Source: Glaciecola nitratireducens FR1064 (GTDB lineage: Bacteria; Pseudomonadota; Gammaproteobacteria; Enterobacterales; Alteromonadaceae). From it: a stretch of 64,000 bases of DNA. Location of the stretch: contig NC_016041.1 of the NCBI RefSeq assembly GCF_000226565.1, forward strand, positions 3,472,001 to 3,536,000, given 5' to 3'. Both the position numbers and the translations under genes were made by a program. How positions within the stretch are numbered: position 1 is the stretch's first letter; the number at the start of each line of letters is the position of its first letter. Positions 13,652 through 19,841 of the stretch are shown here, in pieces. A model generated the notes under the pieces. The model searched no databases. It saw nothing but the letters and a program-made list of their open reading frames with translations, and was not told the origin of the DNA.

Positions 13652-13887
13652 ATGCCACTCTCTTTTTTATTATTATTATTCTGGTGGCAAATGATACATA
13701 AAATACGCTGCCATATCATAAAAAAATTATGCGGTGCAAAGCTCAACTGAAAAGTTATCTGCCCCCTTTATTTTTTAACCTCCCAGACAATTAATAAATT
13801 TAGTTTAATAATCGAACGAAAACAGAGTAGTATTTGGTAAGAAGCAAAAACACGGCTCGGCGTGCTTTAGTAACTTGGACGAACGGA

Positions 13888-14418
13888 ATGTCAGAAAAAC
13901 CTAATAAAACCGATTCAAATATGCAAAGTTCAGATACAACAAATGAACTAGAGCAACTTCGGTTTATCGTATTTGGCGAAGCTAAAAAATCGATTGAAAA
14001 CCGCATTGATACTATTCATAGTGAACTCACTCACTCCATTAGCGCCTTCAAAGAACAGCAAATAATTCAGTTCAGCCACATGCAGCTTCACTTTGAAAAC
14101 GCGCTTAACGCTCTCGATAAAAAGCTTCAAAGCATCGATTCCCATCATGAAGATAATCATAACAATCTGATTAAAGCCAATGAAACTCTGAATTCAGCGC
14201 TCGAAATGGCGGAGTCCTCAGGGAAAGACGATGCTGACGCACTGCACGACCGAATTGATAAAGAAATGGCGGCATTAAGCGCTAACTTCGATTTCAAATA
14301 TGCAGAAGCAATGGAAAAACTCTCTAAAGTGACACACGAGCTAACTGATACAAAAACGGATAGAAAAACCTTGGCGCGACTGCTTGCCACCATGGCTTCT
14401 AATTTGGAAACCGATTAA
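13888..14418 (+). CDS. Coiled-coil protein, first gene of the small-GTPase operon
   Basis: I start this 176-residue protein at ATG 13888 (MSEKPNKTDS); an in-frame GTG at 13834 would add an unlikely basic leader. It is soluble, acidic and mostly helical, with heptad-like patterns over residues 35-165 typical of coiled coil. Near the N-terminus (residues 21-40) LEQLRFIVFG resembles LETLRRILIG at residues 21-30 of the next protein, which may be a shared docking or dimerisation element. It is 6 bases upstream of the OmpA-domain gene and so heads the operon. No known domain is recognised. It may act as a scaffold or as a partner of the membrane protein, which is inference from context. Confidence 0.7.
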   Translation: MSEKPNKTDSNMQSSDTTNELEQLRFIVFGEAKKSIENRIDTIHSELTHSISAFKEQQIIQFSHMQLHFENALNALDKKLQSIDSHHEDNHNNLIKANETLNSALEMAESSGKDDADALHDRIDKEMAALSANFDFKYAEAMEKLSKVTHELTDTKTDRKTLARLLATMASNLETD

Positions 14419-14424
14419 GCTGAC

Positions 14425-16200
14425 ATGCAAGACAAGACGGGTTTTCAACAGGACGTGGATAATTCGAATGTCGAAGACTCTCAATTAGAGACCCTTCGCA
14501 GAATTCTCATTGGCAAAGAAGTAGATAAAGCAGCGGCAGAAATTCGGGCCGAATCACGAGAAATGGTTTCCGACGTTTTATCTGAAGCGTTACATGATCG
14601 TGAAAAGAAAGATGGCTCAGTACAACGTATTATCCAACCTATCATTGCGAAATCAGTCGAAAAGTCGCTGATTAGCCAACGCAAAGACTTCATCGATTAT
14701 TTGTACCCACTCGTCGGTAGTTTAGTGCGCAAAGCCGTTTCCGTGTTTTTTACTGACTTCATCGAAAAAACTAACGAAATTATTGAAAATAGCATTACGG
14801 CAAAAGGCATAAAATGGCGTATTAATGCTTGGCGTTCAGGTATCTCTTTTTCAGAATATGTTGCATCGCAAACATTTGTTTTTAAAGTTGAACAAGTATT
14901 TTTAATACATAAAGACACTGGCAACTTATTAAAATCTGTCGTTGCTGATAACTTCAACGAGGAAGATGCTGACTTGGTTTCGGCAATGTTAACTGCTATC
15001 AATGATTTCGTTGCGGACTCTTTTAATCGCTCCGATGATCGAACCGAACAGCACCTAGATACAGTCAAAACTGATGACTTTACCTTGTTGGTCCGCCAAG
15101 GCCCTCAAGCGATACTAGTGGCAGCTGTTAGCGGCAATATTTCGAGAAAGGCAACAAGCCAGCTTCAAATAACACTAGAAGAAATACAGCGTATTTACCT
15201 TACTGATTTTAAAGAATATACAGGCGACAGCAAACCATTCGAAACCGCCGACGCATTATTGCAAGATTGTCTTCTATCCGAGGTAAGAGATGAGCACCAA
15301 AAAACATCCAAAAAGCCTATCTTTGGCTGGCTACTTGTTGTTGTCATGTTGGGTATTATAGCTTGGTATTCATTTGCTTGGTGGAGTGCTTCACAAACCA
15401 TCAATAAAATAAATAAGCTAGAACAACCACCAGGAGTGCTTATTCAAAAGCTAGTAGCCGATGGCCGATATGATATTAAACTTTACGCACTGAGAGACCC
15501 GGCAGCTCAGGAAATTGGAGAATGGTTGTCACAAAATAGTATTGAACAGAAATATATCAATATTGCTGAAACGCCCTTCATTTCAATAGACAAGAAGCTT
15601 ATTACGCAAAAAATATCAACAATTGTGGATGAATACGACACAATCGATATTGATACTCAATCGATGGCATTAGCAGGTAATCTACAACTGAACGATTACC
15701 AAATATTAAAAGCGAGAATTGACCGTATTCCTGGTGCTGAGTTCTTTAAAATCGATAGCCAAGCGATAGAATTCATAGATAATGAAATAGACTTATCAGA
15801 GAATAACGCGGTAAACGAGCAGATATTCATTCGCTTAGTAGGTGAAATAAGCAGTATACAAATTGGCTTTGATGTTGGTGAAACAGCCTTATCCCCGGAA
15901 CAAAGCACTGGCTTAGACAAAGTAAGTGAGCATTATAATAATATTGAGCGGCTGGCCAAAAAGTTAAACCGTAGTACCAACTTAGTGATAGTTGGTGCCA
16001 GTGATAGCACCGGCGAGCGTGGTTTTAATCAGCGACTCAGCGGTCAAAGATCTCTTGTCGTTCGGGAGGCCCTGATTGCACGAGGATTAAAACCTGAACA
16101 TGTCTTTTCAGTTGGAATAGGCGAAATTGAATTACCGGGCAACATAAAAACAACTCGAAAAGTGTTGTTTAATGTTATGTTTGCAGAACTAAACGATTGA
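14425..16200 (+). CDS. Transmembrane protein with predicted roadblock/longin-like domain and periplasmic OmpA domain
   Basis: This 591-residue protein has five visible parts. Residues 20-60 hold an LETLRRILIG motif and a helix. Residues 65-150 form a helical segment (YPLVGSLVRKAV, WRINAWRSGISF). Residues 152-265 have a pattern suggestive of a profilin-like roadblock or longin fold (VEQVFLIHKDTGNLL, LVSAMLTAINDFVADSF, LLVRQGPQAILVAAVSG). A single membrane helix spans about 299-320. A BON-like region covers about 340-450, and a C-terminal OmpA peptidoglycan-binding domain about 480-590, with the key Asp in GASDSTG and Arg in NQRLSGQRS. This predicts an N-terminal cytoplasmic half facing the GTPase encoded next and a periplasmic half bound to peptidoglycan. 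Related proteins of this layout occur in other bacteria as far as I recall, without an established function. The fold assignment for 152-265 is inference. Confidence 0.75.
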   Translation: MQDKTGFQQDVDNSNVEDSQLETLRRILIGKEVDKAAAEIRAESREMVSDVLSEALHDREKKDGSVQRIIQPIIAKSVEKSLISQRKDFIDYLYPLVGSLVRKAVSVFFTDFIEKTNEIIENSITAKGIKWRINAWRSGISFSEYVASQTFVFKVEQVFLIHKDTGNLLKSVVADNFNEEDADLVSAMLTAINDFVADSFNRSDDRTEQHLDTVKTDDFTLLVRQGPQAILVAAVSGNISRKATSQLQITLEEIQRIYLTDFKEYTGDSKPFETADALLQDCLLSEVRDEHQKTSKKPIFGWLLVVVMLGIIAWYSFAWWSASQTINKINKLEQPPGVLIQKLVADGRYDIKLYALRDPAAQEIGEWLSQNSIEQKYINIAETPFISIDKKLITQKISTIVDEYDTIDIDTQSMALAGNLQLNDYQILKARIDRIPGAEFFKIDSQAIEFIDNEIDLSENNAVNEQIFIRLVGEISSIQIGFDVGETALSPEQSTGLDKVSEHYNNIERLAKKLNRSTNLVIVGASDSTGERGFNQRLSGQRSLVVREALIARGLKPEHVFSVGIGEIELPGNIKTTRKVLFNVMFAELND

Positions 16201-16208
16201 GTTTTTGA

Positions 16209-16703
16209 ATGATGTTACAGAAGAAGATTTGTGTACTTGGTCCAACCGGCGTTGGAAAAACAAGTCTTATTAAACAATTTGTCGAAGGTATATTTTCCGA
16301 AAAATACCTGACTAGTATCGGTGTAAAGATCGATAAGAAGATTATTGACTCAACTTTTACTCCGATTCAGTTAATGATTTGGGATTTAGAAGGTATTGAT
16401 AAATACTGCGGATTCAATCCCCGATACTTACGTGGTGCTGCTGCCTATATAATTGTGATGGATCAGACTCGTAGCGCCTCTTTCGTTGAAGCAATTGAAA
16501 TATTTAAAGAAGCGCAAAAACATTCAGACTCTCCAGCATTTCTAGTCATCAATAAACAGGATTTACCAACTGCTATCAGTTGGGAACAAAACGACGTCGA
16601 GTCAGTTTCCGCGTTGTTTAAAGGGCACTTTCTTACAAGCGCAAAAACGGGTAGCCAAGTAGAAGAAATGTTTAGGTTTTTAGCAAAAACAATAATGGAC
16701 TAA
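16209..16703 (+). CDS. Ras-like small GTPase
   Basis: The 164-residue protein is a stand-alone small GTPase strongly resembling the eukaryotic Ras/Rab type. G1 is GPTGVGKTS (residues 11-19), G2 the Thr in YLTSIGVK (about 35), G3 WDLEGID (58-64), G4 NKQD (115-118) and G5 TSAKTG (143-148). The catalytic Gln that follows DxxG in Ras is Ile here, so intrinsic hydrolysis should be slow unless a partner supplies the missing group. There is no C-terminal prenylation cysteine or membrane anchor. It sits 8 bases after the OmpA-domain gene and 4 bases before the PAS-GGDEF-EAL gene. The neighbouring roadblock/longin-like domain is a natural candidate regulator, by analogy with MglA-MglB, which is inference. 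Confidence 0.88.
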   Translation: MMLQKKICVLGPTGVGKTSLIKQFVEGIFSEKYLTSIGVKIDKKIIDSTFTPIQLMIWDLEGIDKYCGFNPRYLRGAAAYIIVMDQTRSASFVEAIEIFKEAQKHSDSPAFLVINKQDLPTAISWEQNDVESVSALFKGHFLTSAKTGSQVEEMFRFLAKTIMD

Positions 16704-16707
16704 TAAA

Positions 16708-18870
16708 ATGCAACCTTCACTCATTCAAGCTTTAGGCATAATTGATTGTGCGGTATTCAAACTTCGCAGTGGCAGTGTTTTTGAAGTAGTGCAGTCAACG
16801 CCTAGCTGGGTCAGCAAACTTGTTCCTTCAATTAATAACGGTGATAACGTCGACTTAGCTGAAGTTAGTCTTTTTCTCACCGACTTTTTGATTGATGCAC
16901 ATGAGTTTTGGAAGCTGCATTCATCAGGTCAAGTGCACAGCGGGATTTGGACCGAGGCCCTTCAGGATGACGACAATCTGCACCTTGAAGCAATAGCCGC
17001 GAGTGCAGGACCAGATCAATATCTTGTTATTAATAACGTAAATGATGCATATGTCCGGCAGCAGGAAACCCTCCAGGTAGCTCGTGAATTACTGATATCC
17101 AATGATCGCGTCATTGAAAAGCATGACTATATGCATGAGAGACTGCGTTCAGTGCTGATGCAACAGCATTTAGGCGCAGAAGGTAGCTTGCCTATTAGAG
17201 AGGCTATACAGTATGCATCAATAGGCGTAGTTATTACCGATATCGAATTCCATATTTCAGAGTCAAATCCAAGCTCTTACAAAATATTCGAAATGGAAGT
17301 GGGCCTATCAGACCAATCACCGATTGACGTCATATTAAATCTGCTAAATAAACAGTTCCCAGAAAAAGACCGTATTTTTGAAACACAATCAGGCTGGACC
17401 GGAGAACTATATTGGCATCTTCCCCCCAATTATCATAAGTGGATACAGTTAGGCATTCATCCAGTCAAAGATGAAAACGGTAATCTCTGTAATTGGATAT
17501 TTACCACCAGTGATGTCACCAGAGTTAAATATTTGCTGCAAACTAATGAAGATTTGTCGCTGCACGATGCGCTCACCAAGCTGCCCAATAGACAGTATTT
17601 TTGGCAAACGCTAGACCAGACGATTGCTAGCCAAACACCTTTTTACGTCATTTATTTAGACATCAGCAATTTCAAAAATATCAACGAACTTTATGGTCAC
17701 TTAACAGGTGACCAGTTGCTTACTCAGGTTGCCCAAAGGTTACGAAATCTTGTTCCTGAACGAGATTTTATCGCTCGAATTGGCGCTGATGAATTCGCCA
17801 TAGTGCACTTTGCAAAAGACAATGTTAGCAAACCCGATTTTAAGACTTATTTAGATGACACCATTAAGTTAACTCAGGAATTAAGCGCCGCCTCAAACGA
17901 ACCCTATTACACCAATAAAGACCGTCGCTGTGAGCTTCCCTTGAAAATTGGAGTGTCAACCTATCCGAGTGATGCAGGGACCGTTGAAGAACTGATGAAA
18001 TACGCTGATTTAGCTTTACACCATGCCAAGCAAACTGGCACAGACCCAATTCAATTCTACTCCTTAGATTTAAAAATCGCGTCTGAAAGAAGATTGATGC
18101 TTGAAGAAGCACTTCGTCATGCAATAGAGAAAGAGCAATTTGAGCTGTATGTGCAGCCTATTTATGATTTACGTACAAATACGATAGTTAAAGCGGAAGC
18201 TTTACTCAGGTGGCACATTAGCGATGATGAAATGATTAGTCCTGACATATTTATTCCGATTGCGGAACAGAGTGGACAAATTGTGGCAATAGGAAGATGG
18301 GTTATTAGCAGTGTTTGTGAGCTACTAGCTCAAATGTCTAAGCAAAATCTCTCAGTGCCACTATCGCTGAACTTGTCACCTCGTCAGATCTCAGATCGTC
18401 ATTTATTCGACTTCATTAATAACGCCGTAATTAAAAACAAAGTATCACCCGATTTGCTTGAATTAGAAATTACCGAAGGTGTCTTAGTCGATAATCATGA
18501 GAAAGTACGAAAGCTTCTGCAAGAGCTACGCGAAATGGGTGTAACTGTAGCAATCGATGACTTTGGAACAGGTTATAGTTCGTTAAGTTATCTAAAATAT
18601 TTGCCAATAGATTCGCTTAAGATTGATCAGTCCTTTGTTTTTGATCTTGGCTACAACTCAGACGACCAAGCCATCGTTTTAGCGGTTATCGCTATGGCTA
18701 AAAGCTTAAAATTAGGTGTAGTAGCTGAAGGTATTGAAACTCAGCAACAAAAAGACTTTCTCGAACAACATGACTGCATTATAGGACAAGGGTTCTTATT
18801 GAGCAGACCCCTAACTATTTATAATTTCATTAAGTTGGTTGAGCAGAATTACCGTGAGATAAGAGGTTAA
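16708..18870 (+). CDS. Sensor PAS-GGDEF-EAL cyclic-di-GMP protein of the GTPase operon
   Basis: This 720-residue protein has an N-terminal domain (1-145) with a distinctive FLTDFLIDAHEFW motif and a helical end, a PAS-like domain (about 165-285), GGDEF (about 290-460) and EAL (about 470-715). The GGDEF signature reads GADEF, so cyclase activity is doubtful. The EAL domain keeps the expected residues: EALLRW, NLSPRQ, LEITEG, DDFGTGYSS, the Lys in LKIDQSF, and VAEGIETQQQ. It is therefore predicted to be a c-di-GMP phosphodiesterase, possibly controlled by GTP through the degenerate GGDEF domain. No membrane helix is seen. It is the last gene of the operon, 4 bases after the GTPase, and would be the output. 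Confidence 0.88.
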   Translation: MQPSLIQALGIIDCAVFKLRSGSVFEVVQSTPSWVSKLVPSINNGDNVDLAEVSLFLTDFLIDAHEFWKLHSSGQVHSGIWTEALQDDDNLHLEAIAASAGPDQYLVINNVNDAYVRQQETLQVARELLISNDRVIEKHDYMHERLRSVLMQQHLGAEGSLPIREAIQYASIGVVITDIEFHISESNPSSYKIFEMEVGLSDQSPIDVILNLLNKQFPEKDRIFETQSGWTGELYWHLPPNYHKWIQLGIHPVKDENGNLCNWIFTTSDVTRVKYLLQTNEDLSLHDALTKLPNRQYFWQTLDQTIASQTPFYVIYLDISNFKNINELYGHLTGDQLLTQVAQRLRNLVPERDFIARIGADEFAIVHFAKDNVSKPDFKTYLDDTIKLTQELSAASNEPYYTNKDRRCELPLKIGVSTYPSDAGTVEELMKYADLALHHAKQTGTDPIQFYSLDLKIASERRLMLEEALRHAIEKEQFELYVQPIYDLRTNTIVKAEALLRWHISDDEMISPDIFIPIAEQSGQIVAIGRWVISSVCELLAQMSKQNLSVPLSLNLSPRQISDRHLFDFINNAVIKNKVSPDLLELEITEGVLVDNHEKVRKLLQELREMGVTVAIDDFGTGYSSLSYLKYLPIDSLKIDQSFVFDLGYNSDDQAIVLAVIAMAKSLKLGVVAEGIETQQQKDFLEQHDCIIGQGFLLSRPLTIYNFIKLVEQNYREIRG

Positions 18871-18891: not shown

Positions 18892-18943
18892 AAGGGGTCC
18901 GTGTTAATTAATATTCTTAAAAATTAATTAACACGGACCCCTT
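18892..18943. repeat. REP-like perfect palindrome, also a likely bidirectional terminator
   Basis: Two perfectly complementary 21-base arms (18892-18912 and 18923-18943) flank a 10-base loop. The arms contain GGGGTCCGTGTTAATTAA. A degenerate second copy lies at 30375-30410. Both lie between convergent gene pairs. The form resembles REP elements mobilised by RAYT transposases; none is encoded in this window. On the minus side the hairpin is followed by a T-rich run, so it probably also terminates hflC transcription. Confidence 0.75.
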
Positions 18944-18956
18944 GTTTGGGGCTACT

Positions 18957-19841
18957 TTATTTCTTTTTGCCCGACTGAGAGTTCAAGTAATTAAAGAACT
19001 CACTGTCTGGCTCAAGCACAATTACGTCTTGCTTGCTGTTAAACGAATTTCTGTAGGCGTCCATACTTCTCAAAAATGAGTAAAACTCAGGATCTTTTGA
19101 AAAAGTATCAGCGTAAATTTTAGCTGATAATGCAGCACCTTCACCGCGCAACTGTCGTGCATTTCGCTCGGCGTCGGCTAGCATGATGGTTACTTTTGCA
19201 TCAATGTTGGCACGAATGATTTCGCCTTGCTCTTTACCCTCAGAGCGATATTCTCTGGCGGCTGCGGCACGCTCTGAACGCATCCGGTTGAATATTGACT
19301 CACTGATTTCTGTCGGCAAGTTAATTTGCTTCACTCGAACATCAACAATCTTTATACCCAACTCGTCGGAGCTGCCAGACGCTTGTTCCATTGCACCGTC
19401 CATCAATTCACTACGTTCCCCAGAGACTATCTGTTGAATCGTGCGAGAACCGAACTCAGAACGTAGCCCGTTGTTCACCTTCTGCTTCAATAGACTCTCT
19501 GCTTGGAATCTATCGCCGCCAGTTGACAAGTAGTAACGTTCGAAGTCTTCAATTCTCCACTTTACATAAGAATCGACAATCAGATCTTCTTTCTCTATTG
19601 TAACGAAACGATCGGCTTGCTCATCCAAAGTTTGAATGCGAGCGTCCAATATCTTTACCGTATCGAAAACAGCCAATTTAAGGTGCAGACCCGGTGCATA
19701 AACTTGCGTTTTGCCTTCATCATCTTGAACAACTTTACCGAAACGAACAACGATAGAGCGAGTGCCTTCCTTAACTACGAAAATAGAACCATAACCGATG
19801 GCTAACAGGACAATTATTACTATCGCTAATAAATTCTTCAT
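18957..19841 (-). CDS. hflC: HflC, protease modulator
   Basis: This 294-residue SPFH/prohibitin-domain protein has an N-terminal membrane anchor (LLAIVIIVLLAIGYGSIFVV). The SPFH core includes GTRSIVVRFGKV and YAPGLHLKLAVFDTV, and a long helical region includes RSERAAAAREYRSEG. With HflK it forms the large periplasm-facing cage around FtsH that limits proteolysis of membrane proteins. It is 3 bases downstream of hflK, forming one transcription unit. Confidence 0.95.
   Translation of the reverse strand: MKNLLAIVIIVLLAIGYGSIFVVKEGTRSIVVRFGKVVQDDEGKTQVYAPGLHLKLAVFDTVKILDARIQTLDEQADRFVTIEKEDLIVDSYVKWRIEDFERYYLSTGGDRFQAESLLKQKVNNGLRSEFGSRTIQQIVSGERSELMDGAMEQASGSSDELGIKIVDVRVKQINLPTEISESIFNRMRSERAAAAREYRSEGKEQGEIIRANIDAKVTIMLADAERNARQLRGEGAALSAKIYADTFSKDPEFYSFLRSMDAYRNSFNSKQDVIVLEPDSEFFNYLNSQSGKKK

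Follow-up and report, generated by a model that had tools for sequence, protein, structure and literature searches.

The four adjacent genes A to D described here are a Group 1 Rup module, in which a one-helix membrane protein with a predicted longin/roadblock-fold domain (B) stands beside a Rab-like GTPase (C) and an output protein with a predicted PAS-fold head (D). They lie in a window of 64 kb, i.e. the whole stretch of DNA analysed, from a 4.13-Mb genome that is a single contig. The layout was already known, as Wuichet and Søgaard-Andersen (2014; PMC4316618) describe it for Group 1 Rup. The similar layouts elsewhere that the initial annotation of this DNA mentioned are in print under that name.

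All four genes are encoded on the + strand with intergenic gaps of 6, 8 and 4 bases (Table 1), so that the ORFs bear out the four-gene layout read initially; the mechanical ORF of gene A begins further upstream, with a TTG at 13834. The domains noted at the outset each scored above the Pfam cut-offs, namely OmpA in B (38.2 bits against 27.2), Ras in C (97.2 bits against 21.6, E = 1e-27), and GGDEF and EAL in D (120.4 and 245.6 bits), and the single membrane helix ascribed to B corresponds to its one strongly hydrophobic stretch. The PAS domain noted in D was recovered as a match to PAS_9, albeit at 20.7 bits and thus under the cut-off of 27. Terminator-like sites were found without excess over the region (3 versus 4.0 expected by shuffling). 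An inverted repeat after the predicted operon, absent from the list of the terminator scan, is possibly a terminator or a repeat element; it sits between gene D and an opposite-strand gene (18957-19841), which looks HflC-like (the name was read from its translation).

Table 1. Features of the Rup module (positions in the window; residue numbers refer to the proteins)
Feature	Position	Strand	Basis and remarks
Gene A	13888-14418	+	ORF; predicted cytoplasmic coiled-coil protein, 176 aa
Gene B	14425-16200	+	ORF; one-helix membrane protein, 591 aa
Longin/roadblock-fold domain of B (predicted)	14878-15285	+	Residues 152-287; structure model of residues 1-297
Transmembrane helix of B	15319-15384	+	Residues ~299-320; hydrophobic stretch read from sequence
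OmpA-type domain of B	15868-16134	+	Residues 482-570; Pfam PF00691, E = 1.9e-9
Gene C	16209-16703	+	ORF, Pfam Ras; stand-alone Rab-like GTPase of Rup kind, 164 aa
Gene D	16708-18870	+	ORF, Pfam, motifs; PAS - helix - PAS - GADEF - EAL protein, 720 aa
PAS family 1 domain of D (predicted fold)	16708-17040	+	Residues 1-111; no Pfam model
Exit (signalling) helix of D, long	17041-17181	+	Residues 112-158; near-invariant Gln123 and Arg126
Second PAS domain of D (likely)	17224-17520	+	Residues 173-271; PAS_9, E = 5e-4, below cut-off
GGDEF domain of D, signature GADEF	17560-18042	+	Residues 285-445; Pfam and motifs
EAL domain of D, canonical motifs	18106-18810	+	Residues 467-701; Pfam and motifs
Inverted repeat after predicted operon	18892-18943	.	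Arms of 24 nt, loop of 4 nt, 96% complementary

Protein B comprises cytoplasmic helices and a longin-type domain, followed by a periplasmic stretch and then the OmpA domain. The initial annotation had regarded residues 152-265 as a partner-like domain of roadblock type, and our structure model agrees, predicting a longin/roadblock fold at residues 152-287. In the model, the order of helices and strands fits this fold, and the domain displays the longin topology of a five-stranded sheet, one inserted helix and two C-terminal helices. Its structure matches in PDB were entries for TRAPP, Mon1-Ccz1, Fuzzy-Inturned, Ragulator and MglB, which, judging from their titles and general knowledge, we take to be longin- or roadblock-bearing and in many cases GTPase partners. 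An alignment of B with MglB-type proteins received weak profile support (E = 0.0041, probability 8.3), and none of 60 column shuffles was as good (best shuffle, 0.02). Since this match is too weak to identify B as a roadblock from the sequence alone, the fold model carries the claim. Robl_LC7 (PF03259) gave no match for the window's B at E <= 1, and none in the window's genome at E <= 1e-5. Fuz_longin_1 was matched by two of the 87 B-family members (best E = 0.053) and did not appear among the first 25 of 109 families for the window's B. Longin domains partner Rab switches in human cells; those of SNAREs and clathrin adaptors exist without any GTPase role, and the fold is thus no proof on its own that B controls a GTPase.

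Of the 94 B homologues, 84 have a hydrophobic helix after the domain (19-residue window, mean hydropathy of at least 1.6). Among 90 B tails, OmpA was detected in 64 and BON in seven, and 26 had no OmpA domain (all at E <= 0.01), so that the module can do without wall binding. Binding of B to peptidoglycan, suggested by its domain family, would accordingly be a common and not a universal property. The OmpA domain in the window retains D527 and R542, presumably the positions of the peptidoglycan-contact pair. Directly after the membrane helix, we also noticed a periplasmic motif, PG(I/V)...G...(G)LRDP.A (15430-15504, B residues 336-360), two residues of which are kept in at least 90% of the 90 tails, i.e. 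more widely than OmpA was detected; it is possibly a sensory part. The B-family alignment used 87 of 95 rows and that of the tails 90 of 94, near duplicates and short or far matches being left out.

The GTPase C carries the motifs GPTGVGKT (P-loop), WDLEGI, NKQD and SAK, and is the only Ras-like match of the C query in its genome (next E = 0.43). Among the best 60 of 766 PDB matches to C, all but one (59) have names of the Rab, Sec4 or Ypt type, the exception being GH01619p. Gln61 is absent from WDLEGI, Ile63 occupying the G3 Gln position, and was present in two of 111 C homologues. One of the GTPase alignments took in 25 rows. Identical GTPases recur between two locus sets (L040/L091, L036/L080 and L034/L035/L076/L077), so that counts over loci are not all independent. 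One genome (G126) possesses two GTPase genes, of which one is in the order A-B-C-PAS2 and the other lies beside a PAS1-HD-GYP gene with no B within the stretch fetched (loci L036 and L037).

Residues 1-111 of D are predicted by structure modelling to adopt a PAS fold, which we designate PAS family 1. Seven of the nine near-invariant residues of this family are located in the PAS domain and two in the exit helix, where, of 54 non-gap rows, 50 have the Gln and 52 the Arg. PAS family 2 aligned with family 1 over 112 columns (E = 1.4e-4) with the Gln in register, and at least one PAS domain bears this Gln in 96 of 102 loci, the window included. Towards the C-terminus, D keeps EALLRW, LNLS, ELEITEG, DDFGTG, LKIDQ and AEGIET intact, which we take to be the catalytic motif set of EAL phosphodiesterases. 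The EAL motifs, read from aligned columns, were kept in all nine GGDEF-EAL relatives aligned, with EVL for EAL in two. The GGDEF/GGEEF signature is not intact in the window, where it reads GADEF, and is canonical in three of the nine relatives. Judging from these motifs, D is probably an EAL phosphodiesterase output that breaks down c-di-GMP, and the combination of GADEF with an intact EAL set makes net hydrolysis likelier than balanced turnover. The c-di-GMP turnover proposed initially is too narrow as an account of the output, c-di-GMP being only one of several outputs in the relatives.

The synteny at issue in the initial annotation turned out to be conserved. Among 369 genomes of the window's class, C (E <= 1e-10) was detected in 33 and the cytoplasmic region of B (E <= 1e-8) in 30, and 29 genomes have both (hypergeometric P of about 1e-37, a value that overstates independence because the sampled genomes are related). 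C without B occurred in G004, G065 and G114, as weak matches (E from 1.4e-13 to 9.1e-12), and in G366, on a 3-kb contig; B without a C match occurred in G177 only. PAS family 1 was found in 12 genomes, all of which have B and C, and all of its 13 places adjoin a C gene. The 20 genomes in which PAS family 2 was found comprise 18 that have both B and C, G177 (B) and G366 (C); among the 21 places of this family are one in G154 on a different contig from the C found and one in G177. One or both families are present in 28 genomes of the sample, and among the 369 genomes neither was found in one that lacked both B and C. Neither PAS family was found in G051, G190 and G295, three genomes of a single genus that are among the 29 having B and C.

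The named loci, which are the best 80 of 566 confirmed relatives, come, to judge by their record titles, from Alteromonas and kin, cyanobacteria, Mesorhizobium, Variovorax, Acidobacteria, Bacteroidetes, Chloroflexi-type bacteria, Meiothermus, Spirochaetes, Desulfovibrio and others. Among these best 80, B lies within 500 bp of C on the same strand in 67 and anywhere in the fetched stretch in 70. The ten loci without B comprise four with less than 1 kb upstream and six with at least 3.8 kb; the latter (L080, L099, L100, L115, L123 and L139) have C but no B despite kilobases of upstream flank. A PAS gene is found downstream on the strand of C in 71 of the 80, with family 1 in 30, family 2 in 26 and both in 15. 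Nine of the 80 have no PAS gene beside C; in three (L078, L120 and L122) the contig ends less than 3 kb from C, and two (L112 and L146) have a weaker family-2 match more than 4 kb away on the other strand.

Gene A accompanies the module in most cases, with a homologue in 67 of the same best 80 loci. Its 18 weak Pfam matches included none above its cut-off, the best being SF-assemblin (28 bits against 30.6). We noticed an N-terminal motif, L..lR.iLfG, common to A (13939-14019) and B (14476-14550), and the two aligned in hhalign with E = 0.0011 over 27 columns, the best of 60 shuffles reaching 0.034. The common motif is perhaps an assembly helix, and A would be a coiled-coil scaffold that has this helix motif in common with B.

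Output enzymes are swapped among relatives while the PAS domain stays, and both PAS families keep company with B and/or C. In 55 proteins with PAS family 1, Pfam detected HATPase_c in 23, HisKA in 15, GGDEF in 14, HD_5 in 12, EAL in ten, a sigma-54 activator in two and SpoIIE in one. In 60 proteins with PAS family 2 (60 of 62 rows), the outputs were HATPase_c and HisKA in 25 each, class III cyclase in nine, HD_5 and SpoIIE in three each, and GGDEF and sigma-54 in one each; proteins bearing both families are entered in both counts. One further alignment used 47 of 60 rows, near duplicates and short or far matches being dropped. In seven cyanobacterial loci, the protein encoded after C is PAS family 2 standing alone, 129-137 residues long and lacking an enzyme. 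Whole output proteins were uninformative as queries, matching 92 of 94 genomes, evidently via common kinase domains. In three loci without PAS family 1, a gene upstream of the module resembles a response regulator, as read from its first residues (L045, 4658-5359; L055, 6161-6952; L137, 5093-5770).

The supply of the missing Gln in trans appeared at first sight to be refuted by PAS-free genomes, on the basis of 17 sampled GTPase loci that lack Gln61 and come from genomes devoid of PAS family 1. This objection was dropped, since the genes after C in 12 loci showed PAS family 2 with the equivalent Gln. Five loci nevertheless have a complete PAS but no Gln (L079, L087, L138, L141 and L111), and their Gln61 positions are occupied by E, K, S, R and R, respectively; being uncompensated, they indicate that Gln in trans is no universal rule.

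Gene order, linkage, domain make-up, predicted folds, the association of the two PAS families with B and/or C, the exchange of outputs and the absence of Gln61 were obtained by computation, and from them we infer the contacts, the direction of signalling, the exchange or GAP activity, the cue sensed and the part played by A. B would span the inner membrane, its periplasmic end being able to hold peptidoglycan and its cytoplasmic end forming a longin-type platform. This platform may bind C and set its GTP/GDP state, through exchange-factor activity, GAP activity or the two together, in response to the condition of the wall or envelope or merely according to location. C would then act on the PAS-plus-helix head of D, and this contact would gate the output enzyme, here the EAL phosphodiesterase, so that local c-di-GMP follows the GTPase state of C. 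Gln123 of D may reach C, which has no catalytic Gln of its own, and thereby speed GTP hydrolysis and end the signal. We give this scheme an even chance of being correct: a longin platform on a wall-linked B would control the state of C, which would engage the head of D and thereby elicit a response from the output enzyme.

The signal may run the other way, the PAS of D sensing a ligand or redox state and controlling C, and C acting via B on the wall or envelope, with c-di-GMP hydrolysis as a second branch. Such a flow would suit the common sensor role of PAS domains, the occurrence of PAS family 2 as a stand-alone protein adjoining C, and the OmpA domain of many B members. Nevertheless, the variety of output enzymes to which the PAS is fused is more in keeping with a PAS that receives the GTPase signal, and we regard the reversed flow as unlikely; the split of the conserved residues between PAS and exit helix does not decide the direction. 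The module might also be a polarity switch like MglA-MglB. Its chief task would then be to bring D, or pilus or flagellar machinery, to a single site in the cell; the longin protein would be a landmark fixed to the wall and would exert no direct control of catalysis. The parts would be of the same kind at the level of the predicted folds, and OmpA domains can fix proteins to the wall, pinning such a landmark in place. Such a job is improbable in our judgement, as a constant PAS head with changing enzymes fits enzyme control better than mere placement. Lastly, C and B may form one unit and the c-di-GMP protein be a chance neighbour, as could be argued from the output type varying between lineages and from one locus (L069) that has A, B and C with no PAS gene beside C. 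Considering that the enzyme changes under a constant PAS head, and that among the 369 sampled genomes both PAS families are confined to those with B or C, we find a chance neighbour very hard to believe.

As switches, the bacterial Rup GTPases closely resemble eukaryotic Ras and Rab. PMC4316618 proposes that the Ras superfamily of eukaryotes arose from them, and PMC3521125 derives longins from MglB-type roadblocks. If a longin-type domain constantly accompanies a Rab-like GTPase in bacteria, the pairing of Rab with longin would predate the eukaryotes. A tentative reading then has three parts: (i) in bacteria of many phyla, a Rab-like Rup GTPase would be partnered by a true transmembrane longin domain; (ii) the eukaryotic Rab-longin traffic pair may be derived from an envelope-signalling module of bacteria or have a common ancestor with it, in which case its origin would not lie solely in archaeal MglB-type roadblocks; and (iii) the PAS-Gln helix would serve any output enzyme in bacteria as a plug-in effector and GAP. 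That all three hold jointly is doubtful, and likeness within one fold class cannot tell descent from convergence. With the predicted longin/roadblock and PAS folds, hitherto unnamed domains gain names and interfaces that can be tested, i.e. the longin with the GTPase and the Gln of the PAS helix with the GTPase. The role of a widespread module thus becomes directly testable, with a bearing on the origin of the Rab-longin partnership.

In open-access PMC we found neither a longin/roadblock fold assignment for a B-type protein nor the term 'bacterial longin', and in the open-access literature no later test of Group 1 Rup. According to the accessible portion of PMC4316618, no Rup protein had been experimentally characterised at that time; its authors hypothesised a signalling complex for Group 1 systems and speculated that the Gln lacking from G3 of the Rup GTPase is supplied in trans. 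The window shares with the systems described there a Rab/Ras-like GTPase without Gln61, a coiled-coil gene, a membrane protein with an unknown domain and OmpA, and a signalling output protein with a conserved Gln in its N-terminal region, here Gln123, which is presumably the same residue. That portion of the paper gives c-di-GMP enzymes or histidine kinases as typical outputs and names no fold for either unknown region; relative to it, the present analysis adds the predicted longin/roadblock and PAS folds, a second PAS family, further outputs and linkage counts in genomes. MglA-MglB of Myxococcus and Thermus likewise place a Ras-like GTPase beside a partner of roadblock/longin fold, but MglB is a small, soluble Robl_LC7 protein, whereas the window's B spans the membrane and has the extra C-terminal helix of longins in its model, and its GTPase is Rab-like and of Rup type. 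The actinobacterial conservons (CvnA-D), as far as PMC4316618 covers them in its accessible portion, also combine a small GTPase, a roadblock protein and a signalling enzyme in four genes; they differ in having an MglA-family GTPase, a separate roadblock protein and membrane helices on the histidine kinase. In eukaryotes, TRAPP-Ypt1, Mon1-Ccz1-Ypt7, Fuzzy-Inturned-Rab23 and DENN resemble the module in bringing together a Rab-like GTPase and longin-fold domains, and the module differs from them in being bacterial, in lying in one predicted operon and in having a transmembrane, OmpA-bearing partner.
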